A stretch of DNA of 38,845 bases, from assembly GCA_007122985.1 (NCBI GenBank), contig SKSM01000318.1:1-38845 (forward strand), given 5' to 3'. Under the pieces are notes generated by a model that did no database searches, was not told where the DNA came from, and saw only the letters and a list, made by a program, of their open reading frames with translations. Shown piece by piece: positions 28,867 through 38,845 of this stretch. A program made the position numbers and the translations under genes. Source of the DNA: Nitriliruptoraceae bacterium. GTDB taxonomy: Bacteria; Actinomycetota; Nitriliruptoria; Nitriliruptorales; Nitriliruptoraceae. How positions within the stretch are numbered: the stretch's first letter is position 1; the number at the start of each line of letters is the position of its first letter.

Positions 28867-29946
28867 TCAGCCCACCGGGACCGGGCCGCCCACGAGGAAC
28901 CGGGCCAGCGCGTCGGTGAGGGCGCTTGCGATCCGCTGCTGGTGCTGGGGGTCGCACAGCTGACGGCCCTCGTCCGGGTGGGTCAGGAACCCCGGCTCGA
29001 GCACGACGGCTGGTGCGCGCGAGGCCCGCAGGATGGTCATGGTGCCCGGATGGGTGCGGCAGTCGGCGGTGCCGGTGACGTCGAGGACGGCCCCGAGGCA
29101 CAGCTCGCTGAGCCACCGGCCGCGGTCGGAGATCTGCGCGTCGGTGCCGAAGTAGGTCGCGGCCGCGCCGCGGGCGTTGGGCGACCGGTCGCCGTTGAGG
29201 TGGATCGAGAGGATCGCCTCGACGTCCTCGTCGTTGGCGTGGGCGGCGCGATCCTCGGGCGTCGGGGTCGTCGTGGGACCGCGGCTGAGCACAACGTGGG
29301 CCCCGAGCGCTGCCAGGCGGCCCTCGATCGCCGTCGCGATCCGCCAGGTCACCTCGTGCTCGCGGGTGCCGTCCGGGCCTGCGCGGCCGGGATCGTCGAC
29401 GCCGCGCGCCGGGTCGATCATCAGACGGGCGCCGGCGACGGTCAGGCGGGTGGGCTGGCGCAGGGACTCCCGCTCGCGCACCGCCGCCGCTGACGCCTCC
29501 TGGTGCTGCCGGTGGAAGCGGACCAGCACGTCGACGGTCGTCGGACCTGCGATACCGTCGACCAGGAGGCCGGCGTTGAGCTGGAACTCCCGTACGGCAT
29601 CGAAGGTCTGCGGGCCGTAGAGCCCGTCGTCGTGGCCGGCGTCGAAGCCGAGCCGGTTGAGCCGCCGCTGCAGGTCGCGCACGTCGTCGCCGCGTACCAA
29701 CGGTCGGGTCAGGTAGAGCATCCGGTCGCCCAGCCGGTAGGAGGCGCCGACCAGTTCGTGCCAGGTCTCCGGTCCGACGACGCCGTCGGCGCGCAGCCCC
29801 CGCTGCTGCTGGAAGGTCCTGACGGCGTCCTCGGTCGCCCGGTCGAACACACCGGGGTCGGCGTTCCATGCCAGGCCGATGTCGCCGAGGCGACGTTGGA
29901 CGTCGCTGACCTCGGCGCCCACCTGGCCGCGTCGGATCGTTTCCAC
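28867..29946 (-). CDS. cwlM: CwlM-like amidase-fold protein, probably inactive
   Basis: About 359 residues. Two peptidoglycan-binding-1 domains (about 5-60 and 80-140, e.g. DVQRRLGDIGL, VRTFQQQRGLRADGVVGPETW, DLQRRLNRLGFDAGHDDGLYG) precede an Amidase_3 domain (about 165-355). There is no signal peptide, so the protein is probably cytoplasmic, as is mycobacterial CwlM, which activates MurA when phosphorylated. The first zinc-ligand motif (IDPGHGG) reads IDPARGV, losing His. The other landmarks (TREHEVTW, ILSIHLN, VVLEPGFL) remain. GTG 29946 lies about eight bases after TACCCT (-10-like) and lacks a ribosome site, so a leaderless message is possible. GTG 29970 is the alternative start. Confidence 0.85.
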   Translation of the reverse strand: METIRRGQVGAEVSDVQRRLGDIGLAWNADPGVFDRATEDAVRTFQQQRGLRADGVVGPETWHELVGASYRLGDRMLYLTRPLVRGDDVRDLQRRLNRLGFDAGHDDGLYGPQTFDAVREFQLNAGLLVDGIAGPTTVDVLVRFHRQHQEASAAAVRERESLRQPTRLTVAGARLMIDPARGVDDPGRAGPDGTREHEVTWRIATAIEGRLAALGAHVVLSRGPTTTPTPEDRAAHANDEDVEAILSIHLNGDRSPNARGAAATYFGTDAQISDRGRWLSELCLGAVLDVTGTADCRTHPGTMTILRASRAPAVVLEPGFLTHPDEGRQLCDPQHQQRIASALTDALARFLVGGPVPVG

Positions 29947-29983
29947 CGACGCGCAGGGTAGGCGCCGCACGGCGCGGCGCGGA

Positions 29984-30762: not shown

Positions 30763-31086
30763 TCAGCTCAGGTAGTCCGACAGGTCGGCGAGCAGCTGCT
30801 GCTTGCCCTTCGCGCCGACGATGCGCTTGTCGGGCTCTCCGTCCTTGATGACGAGCAGGGTCGGGATCGACATGATGCCGTACTCACGGGCCGTGCCGGG
30901 ATTCTCGTCGACGTTGAGCTTGACGACCTTCAGCTCGTCGGGCCGTTCTGAGGCGATCTCGTCGACGATGGGCGAGACCATCTTGCAGGGACCGCACCAC
31001 TCGGCCCAGAAGTCGATGAGCACGGGCTTGTCGGACTCGAGGACTTCGGTGGCCCAGTCGCTGTCGGTCACAGGGGTCGCGGACAT
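30763..31086 (-). CDS. trxA: Thioredoxin
   Basis: 107 residues with the classic active site WAEWCGPCKM and the cis-proline loop IMSIPTLLVIKDG. It reduces protein disulfides in the cytoplasm using electrons from TrxB. ATG 31086 has GGAGG eight bases upstream. trxB ends 50 bases upstream, giving a trxB-trxA operon, the order also found in Streptomyces and Mycobacterium. The single-domain length is standard. Confidence 0.96.
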   Translation of the reverse strand: MSATPVTDSDWATEVLESDKPVLIDFWAEWCGPCKMVSPIVDEIASERPDELKVVKLNVDENPGTAREYGIMSIPTLLVIKDGEPDKRIVGAKGKQQLLADLSDYLS

Positions 31087-31136: not shown

Positions 31137-32177
31137 TCAGAGGTCGGCGGTCGCGGGCGTCGTCTGGGGCTCGCTGGCGACCTGGCCTCCGCCGCCGGCC
31201 AGCCAGCGCTCGGCGTCGATCGCCGCCTTGGAGCCGGTCCCGGCAGCCGTCACGGCCTGACGGTAGACGTGATCGATGACGTCACCACACGCGAAGACGC
31301 CGGGCAGGTCGGTCGCGGTGGAGGGTTCGTCGACGATGAGGTAGCCCTCCTCGTCGCGCTCGAGCTGCCCCTCGAACAGCCAGGTATTGGGGATGTGGCC
31401 GATCGCGAGGAACACCCCGTCGGTGGCGAGCTCGCGGGTCTCGCCGGTCTTGGTGTCCTGCAGGGTGACACCGGAGACCAGGCCCTGCTCGCCGTGGATC
31501 TCGGTGACCGTCGCGTCGAAGACGAACTCGATCTGGTCGTTCTTGAACGCGCGCTCCTGCATGATCGCCGAGGCACGCAGCTGGTCGCGACGGTGCACGA
31601 CCGTGACCTTCGAGGCGAACTTGGTGAGGAAGGTGGCCTCTTCCATCGCGGTGTCACCACCGCCGACGACCACGACGTGCCGGTCGCGGAAGAAGAAGCC
31701 GTCGCAGGTCGCGCAGGCCGAGACCCCTCCGCCCCACAGCTCGTCCTCGCCGGGGATCTCGAGCCGGCGCGGCTTTGCCCCGGTGGCGATGATCAGCGAG
31801 CGGGTCAGGATGGTCTTGCCGGACGCGGTCTGCAGCTGGATCGGGTTCGCGGTCAGGTCGGTGGACGTCACGTCCTCGGTGACGAAGGTGGTTCCGAAGC
31901 GCGCGGCCTGGTCGCGCATGTTCTGGATCAGCTCGGGGCCGGTGATGCCGTCGGGGAACCCCGGGTAGTTCTCCACGTCGGTGGTCAGGGTCAACTGCCC
32001 ACCGGTGGGGCCGCCGTCGACGACACCCTCGACGAGCAGCGGCTCGAGGTTCGCGCGCGCGGCGTACACCGCGGCGGTCAGTCCGGCCGGCCCGGAGCCG
32101 ATGATGACCACGTCGTGGGTGCGTGCGGTGGGGTCGACCTCGCCCGAGGGAGCGTCGGACACGGTGACGAACGACAT
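31137..32177 (-). CDS. trxB: Thioredoxin-disulfide reductase
   Basis: 346 residues from ATG 32177 (AGGAG six bases upstream); the longer track ORF is not needed. FAD binding: DVVIIGSGPAGLTAAVYAAR. Redox centre: SACATCDGFFF (CATC). NADPH binding: VVVVGGGDTAMEEA followed by VVHRRDQLRAS. C-terminal FAD site: GVFACGDVIDHVYRQAVTAAGTGSKAA. It passes NADPH electrons to TrxA. A SigR/SigH-type promoter (32299-32324) lies about 120 bases upstream, which suggests induction by thiol-oxidative stress. A short Gln/Pro/Thr tail follows the conserved end. Confidence 0.96.
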   Translation of the reverse strand: MSFVTVSDAPSGEVDPTARTHDVVIIGSGPAGLTAAVYAARANLEPLLVEGVVDGGPTGGQLTLTTDVENYPGFPDGITGPELIQNMRDQAARFGTTFVTEDVTSTDLTANPIQLQTASGKTILTRSLIIATGAKPRRLEIPGEDELWGGGVSACATCDGFFFRDRHVVVVGGGDTAMEEATFLTKFASKVTVVHRRDQLRASAIMQERAFKNDQIEFVFDATVTEIHGEQGLVSGVTLQDTKTGETRELATDGVFLAIGHIPNTWLFEGQLERDEEGYLIVDEPSTATDLPGVFACGDVIDHVYRQAVTAAGTGSKAAIDAERWLAGGGGQVASEPQTTPATADL

Positions 32178-32922: not shown

Positions 32923-32942
32923 GCCGCAGGCGGCCCGCTCAG
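32919..32942. terminator. Inverted repeat spanning two convergent stop codons
   Basis: CTGAGC (32919-32924) and GCTCAG (32937-32942) contain the TGA stops of the B-box gene and the anti-sigma gene respectively, with GC-rich sequence between (inner GCCG/CGGC). A compact two-way terminator is plausible. Confidence 0.45.
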
Positions 32943-33898
32943 CCCTGCTCGAAGCGGAGGGGCTGACACGTCGCCCGTTCGACCACCCAGGCCTCGGTCC
33001 GGGTGAACGCCGCGGTCTCCGGATCGACGGTGACCAGTCCGAACAGCAGCGCCTCGACACCGTCTGCCTGTCCGAGCTCCACGTAGGCCGGGATGGCGGC
33101 GACACCTGGTTCCAGCAGCTCCTCGAGGCAGCGTGCGACCTCCCCCGCCGTCTGCGGTGCCAACTGCTCGCCGTCGCGCGTGGTCAGGGCCCGGCCGTCG
33201 TCGTCCGGTTCGTCGGGAGCGTCCTCGGGGGCCGCTTCGGGGGCCTCGTCCGGGGCGGGAGGCGTCGATGCGCCGAGTTCGGCCTGGAAGCGCTGGGCCA
33301 GCTCGGATCCGGGCTGGGTGTCGAATCCGCGGGTCGCGATCGCGTCCAAGTCGGCACCGGCGAGCACCTCGGTGATCACGGCGTCGTCGAGCTCCCGGTC
33401 GTCGTCGACGATCACCGGGCCGGGTGGCCCGGCGTCCAGCGACTCGGCCGCCTCGAGGTCCTCGACCTCGGGTTCGGCCTCCAGGGCGTCGTCGGCGGTG
33501 GTGAACGGCGCCTCGTCGTCAGCCGGGAGCAGGTCGGTGATGACGACGCCGCCGACGACCAGCGCGAGGACCCCGGCCGCCGCCGCGGCCAGGGCCGGGA
33601 CGCGTCGCCAGCGGCGACGGCGTGCGGCGAGCTCGTCCGCGGGTGACCTCGCGTCGCGTTCGGTGGGTGCGCCGACCTGCTCGGCGACGACCGGATCGAG
33701 GCGGGCCCGCAGCCGGGCCTCGAACCCGCTCGGCGGTTCCACCGCAGGCAGGTCGGCGAGCGCCTCGTCGGCACGCTGGATCGCGGCGAGCTCGGTGCGC
33801 AGCTCCGGGTCGCCGGCGAGCTCGGCCTCGAGGGCCGCACGCTCGTCGGCTGGGAGGTCGCCGGCGAGGTAGCTGGCGAGGCGCTCGGCGCGGTCCAC
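32939..33898 (-). CDS. Putative anti-sigma factor, single-pass membrane protein
   Basis: About 319 residues. The N-terminus (RAERLASYLAGDLPADERAALEAELAGDPELR) resembles the cytoplasmic sigma-binding domain of RsmA-like anti-sigma factors, without the HxxxCxxC zinc motif. A basic patch and one transmembrane helix (VPALAAAAAGVLALVVGGVVITDLL, about 98-122) follow, then a long acidic extracytoplasmic part with two cysteines (EVARCLEEL, ERATCQPL). GTG 33898 has GAGGAG five bases upstream; adjacent GTG 33901 is the alternative. It lies 137 bases downstream of the ECF sigma gene, a position like that of M. tuberculosis Rv3912. It probably restrains that sigma factor. Confidence 0.75.
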   Translation of the reverse strand: MDRAERLASYLAGDLPADERAALEAELAGDPELRTELAAIQRADEALADLPAVEPPSGFEARLRARLDPVVAEQVGAPTERDARSPADELAARRRRWRRVPALAAAAAGVLALVVGGVVITDLLPADDEAPFTTADDALEAEPEVEDLEAAESLDAGPPGPVIVDDDRELDDAVITEVLAGADLDAIATRGFDTQPGSELAQRFQAELGASTPPAPDEAPEAAPEDAPDEPDDDGRALTTRDGEQLAPQTAGEVARCLEELLEPGVAAIPAYVELGQADGVEALLFGLVTVDPETAAFTRTEAWVVERATCQPLRFEQG

Positions 33899-34035
33899 CA
33901 CGGCTCCTCGTGGGTGTCGGCGGTGTCGATGTCGGTGTCGGCGGCGGGGGCGCAGACCTGCGGTGCCGGGTGCGGTCGGCGGGGCGGAGGGGGTCGACGG
34001 TGGGACGTGTGCGCGCCCCGGTTGGTTCCTGACGG

Positions 34036-34716
34036 TCAGGGATCGGTGTGGCCGCCAGGAGGGCCGCGCGGTGCGTCGCCGCGTGTCCGGCGGCCGTCGT
34101 CGGTCACGTGGTCGTGCGCAGCGGTCGCCGGGGACCCGGTGGCAGCCCCCTCGGCGAGCAGCTCACCGAGCCGGACCCGCGCGCGCGACACGCGGCTCTT
34201 GACCGTGCCGACGGGCAGGTCGAAGGCGCTGCCGGCGTCTGCGTAGGACCAGCCGTCCACGCCCACCAGCAGGACCAGCTGCCGGCTGACGGGGTCGAGC
34301 TGTGCGAGTGCGCGTCCGATCTCGTCGCCGGCGTCGACGGCACCGGTGGGGTCGACGCCGGTGCGGTGATCTGCCTGCTCGATGTCCTCGACCGGGGTGC
34401 TCGGCCGGCGCGCGTCGCGGCGGACATGGTCGGTGCACACGTTGCGGGCGACCCGGAAGAGCCAGGTCGACAGCGCCGCGTCGCCGCGGAAGGTCGAGGC
34501 CGAGCGGGCCAGTTTGACGAAGGTCTCCTGGGTCGCTTCCTCGGCGTCCTCCGGTGAGCCGAGCACCCGGACACAGACGGCGAACACCCGGCGCTGGAAA
34601 CGGCGGACCAGCACCTCGAAGGCGGCCTGACGCTCGGCGGCCGGGGCGTGCGGGTCGGCGTAGGTCGCCAACAGCTGCTCGTCCGCGGTGTGGCCGGTCG
34701 GCCGGGTTGCGCTCAC
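34036..34716 (-). CDS. sigM: ECF sigma factor, SigM-like
   Basis: 226 residues. Region 2: [68 protein letters not shown]. Region 4: [51 protein letters not shown]. There is no sigma1.1 or region 3, so it is an extracytoplasmic-function sigma factor. By position (before trxBA, after a kinase/MviN-type gene) it matches SigM. GTG 34716 overlaps the kinase stop by four bases (GTGA). A C-terminal Asp/Arg/Gly tail of about 40 residues is not conserved. I did not find a clear SigM-type promoter in the intergenic region upstream of the kinase. Confidence 0.9.
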
Positions 34717-36464
34717 GACGGGCCGAGGAACTCGACGTCGGCGATCTCGGCGGTGTACTCACCGGCGCTGTCGGCCGACAGGCCGGTGATCCACACCAGC
34801 CAGTACCGCTCGGTCGTCGAGCTGAAGCGGAACGGGTGTTGGCTGAGGGTCGCCACCTGTGATGCGCGCGGCTCTCCCCAGGCCTCTGGGCCCGCGACCT
34901 CCGGCGGCGGCTCGCTGGACGCGTAGATCTCGATGTCCAGTCCTCCGCGGACCAGGTCGAGATTGATCCCCCGCACGTCCTGCTCGTCGCCGAGGTCGAA
35001 CACCAGCCCGATGCCGTCACGCTCGTCAGCGAAGTCGGGCTGCTCGTAGGCCTCCGAGCGCCACTGGGTCTGCGGGTCTCCGTCGGCGGCGTCGGGTGCG
35101 AGGTCGGCGTTGTCTCCCGTCCCCGGGTTGGTCGGGTCGAACACCGTGACCTCGTCGATGGGCCAGACCTGCTGCTGGGCGGTCGGCTCGGCGGGCTCCT
35201 CGGCGCTCATGGCGTCGTAGGCGAAGAAGGCGACCACGGCCAGCACGATCCCGCCCAGGAACGCCGCCACCAGGCGTCGGGCGTACTCGCGTCGGGTGGT
35301 GGGCATCGGGCCCGACGGAGCGCGCTCGTCGATCGACAGCTCCGGCAGCTGGTCCGGATCGTGGGCCTCGACGAGTGCAGCGGTGATCTCGCTCGGCTTG
35401 CTGGTGACCAGCGGCGCGAGGGCACCGGCCATCGCCCCGCCGTCAGCGAAGCGGTCGTTGCGGTGACGCTGCGTCGCCCGGACGACGACGTCGTCGAGCG
35501 CTCGGGGGACGTCGGCGCGCAGCTGGCGGGGCGGCAGCACGTCGTGGGTGAGCCGCATGGCGGCCGTCGCGGCCGGCGTGTCCCCGCTGAAGGCGGGACG
35601 CCCCGTCAGGCACTCGTGCAGGACGACCCCGAGCGCATAGATGTCCGCGCGGGCGTCGATGGCGCCGTCCTCGAGCTGTTCGGGGGCGACGTAGGCGGCG
35701 GTGCCCACGACGGTTCCGGGCGAGGTGAGTGTGGCGTCGGCGCCGGTGAGGGCCTTTGCGATGCCGAAGTCGGTCACCTTCACGGTGCCGTCGGAGCTGA
35801 TGAGGATGTTGGCCGGCTTGACGTCGCGGTGGACCAAGCCGTGCGCGTGGGCCTCGTCGAGCGCTGCGGCGACCTGTTCGCCCAGTGCCGCGACCGTCAC
35901 CGGGTCGAGCTGCCCGCGACCACGCATCACGTCGCGCAGGCTCGGCCCGTCCACGTGCTCCATCACCAGGAAGACGAGGTCGCCCTCGCGGCCGGTGTCG
36001 TAGATGCGCACGGCATTGGGGTGGTTGAGCTGGGCCGACGCACGTGCCTCTCGTTCGAAGCGCTCGACCACGGTCGCGTCGGTGGCGTGGTGCGGATGCA
36101 GCAGCTTGATCGCCACGGTGCGTGAGAGGTTCTCGTCGAAGGCTCGCCAGACGATGGCGGCGCCCCCGGAGGCGATCGGCTCCTGCAGCGCGTAGCGACC
36201 TGCGAGGTGTGAGCGGTCGGGCCACGGGCGAGGGCTGTCGCCGGGCCCGGACGGGTCGGGTGCGGACGTGGTCTCGGGATCCGCGGGCGGGTCGCCGTCT
36301 GCGGTGTCCGATGGGGCGTGCTCGGTCGGCGGGGTCGCCGCGTCGAACGACTCGGCTCCGGTCACGGTGGGGTCATCCCCACTGACGTGGGGTGGTTGGC
36401 GCGAGCCGACTCGCTCGTTCGGCCGTCGTTCCACCGTTCTCCCTACGGAGCCAGGGGCGTTCAC
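34713..36464 (-). CDS. Membrane Ser/Thr protein kinase with extracellular discoidin-like domain
   Basis: 583 residues. An acidic Pro/Asp/Thr-rich N-terminus (1-88) is followed by a Hanks-type kinase domain (about 91-360): glycine loop [14 protein letters not shown] (K120), HRDVKPAN (D214), TDFG (D232) and APEQ are all intact. After a linker there is one transmembrane helix ([18 protein letters not shown]) and an extracytoplasmic domain ([28 protein letters not shown]) that resembles the F5/8C-like C-terminus of actinobacterial MviN proteins. The start is uncertain: GTG 36464 or GTG 36434, the latter with GGGAG upstream. It is coupled to sigM by a GTGA overlap. In mycobacteria this unit is a pseudokinase fused to MurJ. 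Confidence 0.85.
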
Positions 36465-36660
36465 AGCACCTCGACACGCCGGTGGCGCCGTCGGCGCCTA
36501 CCGCACGTTGCGTACCACCACCGCACGTACTCACCGGGCCGCAGCGAGCCACAGCCCATGATCACGGTATTCGCAACCGGGGCGGAGTGCGACCACGTCG
36601 GTTGACGACAGGGTGCCCGGTCGCCGGACGGCTGACGCTGCGCCCGGGCGACGGCGGTGC

Positions 36661-38845
36661 TCAGGATCGGTCCACCGGGTCGGAGGCCGTGCCGGTGCGG
36701 TCGACCACCCGCAGCTGCGGGCGGGTCGGTGGCGTCGGCGGTGGTGCGGGCGGGTCGTCAGGTGGCTGTCGGCGGTGTGGACCGCCTGCGGGTGTGCGTC
36801 GCAGCACGCCCACGACGAGCAGGCCGAGGACGATCGCCGCGATCACCCCGAGCGCAGGACCGGAGATCGCGGTCGAGCGCACGCCGATGGTCCCGGTGGC
36901 CAGCTCCCGCTCACCCGTCGGGTCGCTGACCCGGACCGTGACGGGGAATGCGCCGGTCGACATCGCCTGCGTCGGGAAGGTGACCGTCCAGCTCTCGTCC
37001 GGCTCGAGCACCACGCCCTCGACCCTGCGGCCTTCCGGCCAGCGCAGGGTGCCCGGCGAGTTGAGCTCGACGTCGACGACGATCGGTCCGCCGCGACGTC
37101 GTTGCAGCGTGACGGGGATCTGCCCGGTGTCGGAGGTGAGGGTGATCTCGCCACCGGCGACCTCGATCTCCCCGAAGGTGCCGTCGACCGCCCGCTCGAC
37201 ATCGCGCAGCAGTGCTTCGGCTTCGTCGTCCGGTCCCTGATACCACGTCGAGGTGGTGCGCAGCACCGCGTCCTCGAGCTCCTCGACGGTGCGACCGCCG
37301 GCGAGCTCGGCGCCGTCCGGCAGCGCGGCGGCGGCCGCGTCCAGCCCGACGGCCACGTCGGCGATCCGGTCAGCGAGCCCGGTCGACAGCTCCGCCGCCG
37401 GGGCCGATCGCAGCTCCAGGCTGCGGCCGCTCGCAGGCACCTGCGAGATCATCTGCGTCGGTGTCGCCAGCCGCAGCCACGATGCGGAGGTCAGGCCGTC
37501 GAGCAGCCGGTCGACCACCTCCGGCGAGGGGTCCCAGGTCGCGGGTGGGAGCACGACGAGCGCGGGTTCGTCGGCGAGGTAGGCGGCGGCGGTCTCGGCG
37601 ATGGGGCGTTGTGCGCCGAGCACGGGGCCAGCCGGGTGGTCGGTCCTGCCGAGGGAGGCCTCCAGCGCGGGATCGGCCACCAACGTGCCGAGCAGGCGTC
37701 CCGACGGCGCCTGCACCTGGCCGACCGCCGGCGGACCGTCGGTGTCGTCGTCCGGCGTGGCCACCAGGTGGGAGGACAGCAGCAGCTGGTCGCCGGAGAG
37801 CAGGTCGAGCACGTCGTCGTTGATCGCACGGCGCATCAGGCTGGTGCTCGCGTCGACGTCGACCCCGAGCTGCAGCTGCACGCGACGTCGGCCCTCCGAG
37901 GCGGTGACTGCGGCGAGCTCGCGCAGCGTCGGGCCGCCGGCGAGCAGCCCAGGGAGGTCCGCCTCGGCGTACGGTCCGCTGATCGGCGCCGGAGTCAGGG
38001 TGGCCGCGAGCTCACGCACCCGGGTGAGCGTGTCGCTCGCCAGGGCCGGCGCCGCGGCGTTGGCAGGAACCCGTCGCGAGACGAGCTCGCCGTTGGGCGC
38101 CCGTTCGAGGGCCGTGAACCCGTCGGCACGGTCGCTGAGATCCTCCAGCAGGTGGGCCGCCGGCGCGAGGACGACCCGTTCCGAGTGGACGCTCTCCACC
38201 GCGCGGAGCAGGACGTCCAACCGGCCGCCGGGGGCGAGCTCGGCGTCGGCGTCGTAGTGGTAGGCGCCACGGGTGGTGCGCCACGGGTGGGCGTCGATCG
38301 GCCACACCAGCGAGGTGAGCGTCGGCGTCGACGGCAGTTCGTCGAGCCAGACGACGGCCGTGACCGCCTCGTCGAGGACCTCGACACCCCGGGTCACGGC
38401 CAGACGGACCGGGTGTACCCCGCCCGGGTCCTCGGCCCAGGCGACCTCGTCGGCGGGGAACTGGTCGCTGACCCCGCGCAGCTCGCCGGGCGCGAGCCCC
38501 GCGCCCTCGGCCACCTCGTGGGTGTGGATGTGCATGGGCGGGGCCTCGAAGCCGCCCTGGAACGCCGCCTGAAGCTCGCTGCGGGAGCCGACCGCGGGAT
38601 AGATCTCCACGATGACCGACAGCGCGTCGAGCGTGTCGTCGCCGACGTTCTCGACCAGCATGCGCAGGGCCAGCTCGTCGGTGGCGCCCGCCTGGTCGTC
38701 CGGGGCGTCGGGTGGCGGCAGCACCGCGCCGGGCCCGAGCACGCCCGTGAGGTTGGTGACGGTCAGCTGGATCTGCCGCTGTTCGTCCGCGTCCTGCGGG
38801 TCGTCCTGAGCGCTCGCCGGCACGGCGGGCCCGACCGTGGGCAGC
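36661..38845 (-). CDS. DUF6049-type envelope protein, 5' end outside window
   Basis: Partial: at least 727 residues. The track starts at GTG 38823, but the frame stays open to the window edge and reads LPTVGPAVPASAQDDP, which looks like the end of a signal peptide (ASA cleavage site), so the true start is outside. The large extracytoplasmic part has beta-rich segments and ends with a helix (GVIAAIVLGLLVVGVL) and a Pro-rich cytoplasmic tail. This arrangement and location match the Rv3909 family, which precedes mviN in mycobacteria. The function is unknown; a cell-wall role is inferred from context. It is 196 bases upstream of the kinase gene. Confidence 0.75.
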   Translation of the reverse strand, partial: LPTVGPAVPASAQDDPQDADEQRQIQLTVTNLTGVLGPGAVLPPPDAPDDQAGATDELALRMLVENVGDDTLDALSVIVEIYPAVGSRSELQAAFQGGFEAPPMHIHTHEVAEGAGLAPGELRGVSDQFPADEVAWAEDPGGVHPVRLAVTRGVEVLDEAVTAVVWLDELPSTPTLTSLVWPIDAHPWRTTRGAYHYDADAELAPGGRLDVLLRAVESVHSERVVLAPAAHLLEDLSDRADGFTALERAPNGELVSRRVPANAAAPALASDTLTRVRELAATLTPAPISGPYAEADLPGLLAGGPTLRELAAVTASEGRRRVQLQLGVDVDASTSLMRRAINDDVLDLLSGDQLLLSSHLVATPDDDTDGPPAVGQVQAPSGRLLGTLVADPALEASLGRTDHPAGPVLGAQRPIAETAAAYLADEPALVVLPPATWDPSPEVVDRLLDGLTSASWLRLATPTQMISQVPASGRSLELRSAPAAELSTGLADRIADVAVGLDAAAAALPDGAELAGGRTVEELEDAVLRTTSTWYQGPDDEAEALLRDVERAVDGTFGEIEVAGGEITLTSDTGQIPVTLQRRRGGPIVVDVELNSPGTLRWPEGRRVEGVVLEPDESWTVTFPTQAMSTGAFPVTVRVSDPTGERELATGTIGVRSTAISGPALGVIAAIVLGLLVVGVLRRTPAGGPHRRQPPDDPPAPPPTPPTRPQLRVVDRTGTASDPVDRS

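Follow-up and report, generated by a model that had tools for sequence, protein, structure and literature searches.

A predicted active-type ortholog of the MviN pseudokinase in the DUF6049–sigM locus of Nitriliruptoraceae

MviN (Rv3910) of Mycobacterium tuberculosis is a fusion of the flippase MurJ, a pseudokinase and an extracellular domain, and its gene is preceded by a DUF6049 gene and followed by sigM. FhaA binds the phosphorylated MviN domain in mycobacteria. In M. tuberculosis, CwlM switches between MurJ and FhaA by phosphorylation, the non-phosphorylated form binding the intracellular region of MviN and phospho-CwlM binding FhaA (PMC6180346). The pseudokinase domain, which recruits FhaA, is the M. 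tuberculosis member of the ActPs3 pseudokinase family, a family with degraded VAIK, HRD and DFG motifs and a deletion in the activation loop; its other members are said to be without the carbohydrate-binding domain (PMC12599244). The pseudokinase extension of MviN has been held to be limited to arabinogalactan-bearing organisms (PMC10166564).

The gene considered here lies in a 38,845-nucleotide stretch of DNA from a Nitriliruptoraceae bacterium (the window). Judging from its sequence, it encodes a transmembrane Hanks-type Ser/Thr kinase with every catalytic residue, and this kinase is predicted to be orthologous to the pseudokinase half of MviN in mycobacteria. Intact orthologs were described in no paper found in the literature search, which covered largely papers outside subscription access.

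The kinase gene, its product and its neighbours

The features of the locus are listed in Table 1. The initial annotation had proposed a kinase–transmembrane–discoidin layout for this ORF with the key kinase motifs intact, and the observation was borne out: the coordinates were confirmed, one transmembrane helix was predicted, the C-terminal domain showed discoidin/CBM32-like matches, and K120, D214 (HRD) and D232 (DFG) were found exactly at the claimed positions, along with E139, N219 and the APE motif.

Table 1. Coordinates of features around the kinase gene (positions in the window)
Feature	Positions	Strand	Basis and remarks
DUF6049 gene, runs off the window	36661..38844	-	PF19516, 2.9e-22
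Gap between DUF6049 gene and kinase gene, 196 bases, too short for murJ	36465..36660	.	Sequence
Membrane Ser/Thr kinase with C-terminal CBM32/discoidin-like domain	34713..36464	-	583 aa, GTG start; ORF read and profile matches
Kinase domain, about residues 84-350, full catalytic residue set	35415..36215	-	Pfam, PDB match, motifs, AlphaFold2
Single transmembrane helix, residues 391-419	35208..35294	-	Hydropathy maximum from residue 398; AlphaFold2 helix 391-419
Extracytoplasmic CBM32/discoidin-like domain, residues 423-583	34716..35198	-	Profile and structure comparisons
sigM-like ECF sigma factor; start overlaps kinase stop (GTGA)	34036..34716	-	PF04542, PF08281; sequence
Anti-sigma factor-like protein	32939..33901	-	Weak zf-HC2; NCBIfam antisigma 1.1e-16, below cut-off
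trxB-like thioredoxin reductase, start approximate	31137..32177	-	Translation read; conserved in relatives
trxA-like thioredoxin	30763..31086	-	TIGR01068, 1.5e-37
cwlM-like N-acetylmuramoyl-L-alanine amidase with peptidoglycan-binding repeats	28867..29970	-	Profile match; conserved synteny

Residues 1–77 of the protein were predicted to be disordered, and the Pfam Pkinase profile matched residues 91–306 (2e-46). The AIK, HRD, DFG and APE motifs start at residues 118, 212, 232 and 260, so that with the glycine loop and the alphaC Glu the complete residue set of an intact Hanks-type Ser/Thr kinase was present. The activation segment was full and contained threonines (13 residues, not shown), and the pLDDT of the kinase domain in the AlphaFold2 model was mostly above 90. 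The best PDB match, and hence the closest solved structure, was PknB (3.5e-61), far more than chance would give. PASTA repeats gave no Pfam match, and the NCBIfam PknB_PASTA_kin profile scored below its cut-off (355.5 of 450 bits).

In a first survey the motifs were intact in the window and in 14 of 14 further genomes of the family. The K, D, N and D residues were invariant in every family copy read, with kinase-domain identity to the window copy falling as low as 65%, which indicates selection for catalysis.

The gene occupies the position of mviN between DUF6049 and sigM, and was kept there throughout its family and class. In the phylum-wide survey, the conserved block in Actinomycetota read DUF6049–(murJ)–kinase–sigM–anti-sigma–trxB–trxA–cwlM.

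A profile made from 33 homologs of the outer domain matched chitosanase CBM32 modules in the PDB (4ZXE/4ZZ5) at 1.3e-4, with an identity of about 16%. The F5_F8_type_C profile was matched by 24 of the 33 homologs at E values up to 1 (best 8.7e-8), the window copy scoring 0.062, below the Pfam cut-off. The AlphaFold2 model of this domain, made from a single sequence, was weak (mean pLDDT 60.6), and its Foldseek matches were mainly to CBM32 and related domains. One profile was built per group, for this family, mycobacteria, a Streptomyces-like family and two others, and all of these matched one another with hhalign probabilities of 98.6–99.9, compared with 1.5 for a kinase-domain control. The match to the mycobacteria-like copies had a probability of 99.2 (E 3.6e-19). 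The outer domain and the extracellular domain of MviN are therefore homologous.

Intact, degenerate and fused copies across Actinomycetota

The phylum was searched with DUF6049 and the outer domain, and regions were taken from more than 100 genomes. Because the window's own family is over-represented in this sample, the figures are counts and not frequencies. Among 98 locus-linked copies, the K, D, N and D residues were intact in 59 (16 with murJ in the locus and 43 without) and not intact in the other 39. The degenerate copies comprised 25 with murJ adjacent, 9 fused to MurJ and 5 with no murJ found. All nine fused copies were pseudokinases. In a scan of named genomes, L189 was the only locus ortholog among the matches listed, and the remaining kinases served as outgroups.

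A MurJ fusion had been expected at this locus, which the survey did not support; nor was the fused form confined to mycobacteria. A separate kinase gene was the rule in most lineages sampled. Fusion was found only in mycobacteria-like genomes, including family f29 and Mycolicibacterium, and in a few others, with fused frames outside mycobacteria in one Propionibacteriaceae genome and one Bifidobacterium genome. Frames in which MurJ was joined to the outer domain, a degenerate kinase or both were located at L256 3145–6555, L261 3350–7555 and L262 5574–8723 (Propionibacteriaceae, Bifidobacterium and Actinomyces genomes). The assignment of f29 as mycobacteria-like and of f23 as Streptomyces-like was inferred, for example, from gene structure, and fits what was seen at the named Mycolicibacterium and Streptomyces loci. 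Separate copies were found in Kutzneria and, in degenerate form, in Streptomyces, Nocardioides, Demequina and Arthrobacter. The separate Streptomyces gene may already carry an annotation as a kinase-like protein in databases.

The extent of motif loss varied from complete (mycobacteria and Streptomyces) to slight (genus g112). Within g112 the catalytic loop read HGD in one of three genomes and HGN in the others (L112, L113 and L325, from G171, G153 and G233). Such a difference within one genus suggests a recent change, apparently the loss of the catalytic Asp from this kinase. Within the window's own class, a 2.1 Mb genome (G036, L078 6905–8347) carried a pseudokinase beside murJ, with HGA in place of HRD and a broken activation segment, and with no sigM detected in the locus. 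It is an independent case of a pseudokinase.

A rule by which pseudokinases occur only where murJ is in the locus was near perfect in the first sample, the lone exception there (L085) being a broken frame. The rule was dropped: correction for relatedness left it without support, and the wider sample contained five counter-examples.

Position of murJ and direction of change

No murJ was found between the DUF6049 gene and the kinase gene in the window, in agreement with the initial annotation, and the gap of 196 bases together with a murJ elsewhere in the genome ruled out a hidden or frameshifted copy upstream of the kinase. The MurJ domain is thus not part of the 583-aa ORF. A search of the whole genome (348 contigs, 75.6% complete) gave one murJ match, which has a 5'-3' exonuclease gene as its neighbour on contig C319. 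MurJ is thus encoded elsewhere, as the initial annotation had considered possible. Where the surroundings of murJ were read in other members of the family, nearly all showed the same exonuclease–murJ pair, as did the single genome of the sister family f2.

Elsewhere in the class, in families f3, f4 and part of f5, murJ either directly precedes the kinase gene or sits between it and DUF6049, and outside the class murJ was in the locus in many families. It was not in the locus in the copies read from f27, f40, f43, f62, f63 and f68. Because f3, f4, part of f5 and many other lineages keep murJ there, its absence is best read as derived, and as having occurred more than once.

In the MurJ tree, a very long branch lay between the class's proteins, encoded in and out of the locus alike (L001, L032–L060; in-locus L079, L086 and L092), and most other actinobacterial MurJ; the former grouped with copies from two named MAGs (L240 and L241) and look like a distinct or replaced lineage. 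In view of this branch, the class may carry a replaced MurJ lineage, and the tree is compatible both with in-place replacement and with relocation.

In a tree with 54 other bacterial Ser/Thr kinases, the intact locus kinases grouped as a single clade (SH-aLRT 99.7). The locus copies ceased to be strictly monophyletic once the tree also included some degenerate copies and the off-locus kinases that share the outer domain (AU p 0.037), an effect due at least in part to a class-specific duplicate nested among them. This second kinase (L326 3064–4890, L327 3021–5822 and L328 3011–4987, in G014, G025 and G009) has the same outer domain and intact motifs in another genomic context, and its position as sister to the family's locus kinase points to a class-specific duplication. 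Further intact kinases with a matching outer domain were found away from the DUF6049–sigM block in seven families (L269–L289, L301, L311 and L313; f18, f22, f32, f41, f45, f55 and f67). In the tree these grouped more closely with other Ser/Thr kinases than with those of the locus.

On a TrxB tree, which is independent in that kinase columns were not used, the intact or degenerate state changed about six times (bootstrap range 5–7), with at least three changes on well-supported branches. The trees are unrooted, and two arguments point to a change from active to dead: a regain of all motifs is implausible, and the locus kinases have an affinity to other active kinases. On this basis the intact, separate kinase was taken as ancestral and, on the sequences compared, is most likely the state from which the degenerate and fused forms derive. 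The suggestion in the initial annotation that the window gene preserves the ancestral state is therefore supported for the intact, separate kinase and not for the locus without murJ, which is best read as derived.

Proposed history, alternatives and known systems

Taken together, the results probably reflect an active-type ortholog of the MviN pseudokinase, with a separate active kinase as ancestor, repeated loss of catalysis, fusion of a dead kinase to MurJ, and glycan-controlled phosphorylation of MviN-pathway partners. In the ancestral actinobacterial form, the active kinase would have had a gene of its own, placed after murJ and before sigM, and its outer domain would have been CBM32/discoidin-like. 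Catalysis would later have been lost independently in several lineages, and in mycobacteria and a few others the dead kinase would have been joined to MurJ in one protein. The window's family would have gone the opposite way, murJ leaving the locus and the kinase staying intact. Binding of an envelope glycan, perhaps peptidoglycan or lipid II sugars, to the outer domain would change dimerisation, and the inner kinase would then phosphorylate CwlM, FhaA or MurJ, or alternatively the SigM/anti-sigma pair, sigM being taken as translationally coupled to the kinase gene. For the window kinase, activity as an enzyme, the ligand, the substrates and the direction of control are all proposed from sequence. 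FhaA_N was present in the window genome and, among relatives, in each of the 31 genera searched. Redundancy is possible, as the 75.6% complete genome contains four further kinase genes.

The choice of substrates admits an alternative in which the kinase is mainly a sensor of the SigM pathway, envelope damage leading to phosphorylation of the anti-sigma factor or SigM, and the link to MurJ is positional only. The four-base overlap of the kinase stop and the sigM start favours it, as does the wide conservation of the kinase–sigM–anti-sigma order even where murJ has gone. However, intact kinases without sigM detected beside them occur in L130, L135, L314 and L315, and mycobacterial MviN biology points to MurJ, CwlM and FhaA (PMC6180346); we therefore consider this reading unlikely, if a serious candidate. 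A role mainly as a scaffold, as in MviN, with the motifs intact and catalysis dispensable, appears less probable again. Degenerate orthologs persist at the same locus in many lineages, so the protein is useful without catalysis, and recruitment of FhaA by the MviN pseudokinase (PMC12599244) offers a precedent; the invariance of K, D, N and D in family copies with kinase-domain identity down to 65% argues the other way.

Later replacement in the class, by which a gene that had encoded a pseudokinase received an active PknB-like kinase domain, could account for PknB being the closest solved structure (3.5e-61) and for the NCBIfam PknB match, itself below cut-off (355.5 of 450 bits). It is disfavoured by the kinase tree: the intact locus kinases of many families are one clade apart from PknB-type and other kinases, with subgroups that follow family lines, and so are not recent replacements by PknB-type kinases. 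The outer domains, moreover, are homologous with those of degenerate copies, and a swap of this kind seems very improbable.

Under the preferred reading, of an ancestral active kinase that died repeatedly, the window gene shows the origin of a dead domain that regulates mycobacterial cell-wall synthesis. The same gene is a dead kinase in Streptomyces, and in mycobacteria it is both dead and fused to the flippase. Living active-type orthologs would allow one to ask what the enzyme phosphorylated before its death and whether the dead domain kept those partners, and the repeated losses offer a natural series for how kinases turn into scaffolds. As a wider and more tentative proposal, Actinomycetota may ancestrally have had an active glycan-sensing kinase, distinct from PknB, in a murJ–sigM–cwlM cell-wall locus. 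This kinase would repeatedly have lost its activity in separate lineages and become joined to MurJ in mycobacteria, and would still work in Nitriliruptoria and several other lineages, controlling lipid II export or the SigM response.

Compared with MviN, the window protein shares the locus, the kinase fold, a transmembrane helix and a homologous outer domain, but it has no MurJ part, its kinase motifs are intact and murJ lies on another contig. In contrast to the view that only arabinogalactan-bearing organisms have the extension (PMC10166564), this kinase and its outer domain occur across the phylum, often with intact catalytic residues. The likeness to ActPs3 lies in the actinobacterial origin and a transmembrane helix after the kinase domain, whereas the degraded motifs and shortened activation loop of that family were not found in the window kinase, in which all motifs are present. 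Unlike the ActPs3 members as described (PMC12599244), the separate degenerate copies surveyed do carry the outer domain. The likeness of that domain to CBM32 and F5_8 type C modules, at low identity, lies in the profile match to chitosanase modules and in the Foldseek matches of a low-confidence model, the window copy itself scoring below the Pfam cut-off. With PknB and other PASTA kinases the window kinase has in common an active-type kinase domain with the same motifs, one transmembrane helix and an outer sensor domain; it differs from them in having no PASTA repeats, in falling below the NCBIfam cut-off and in belonging to a separate clade.
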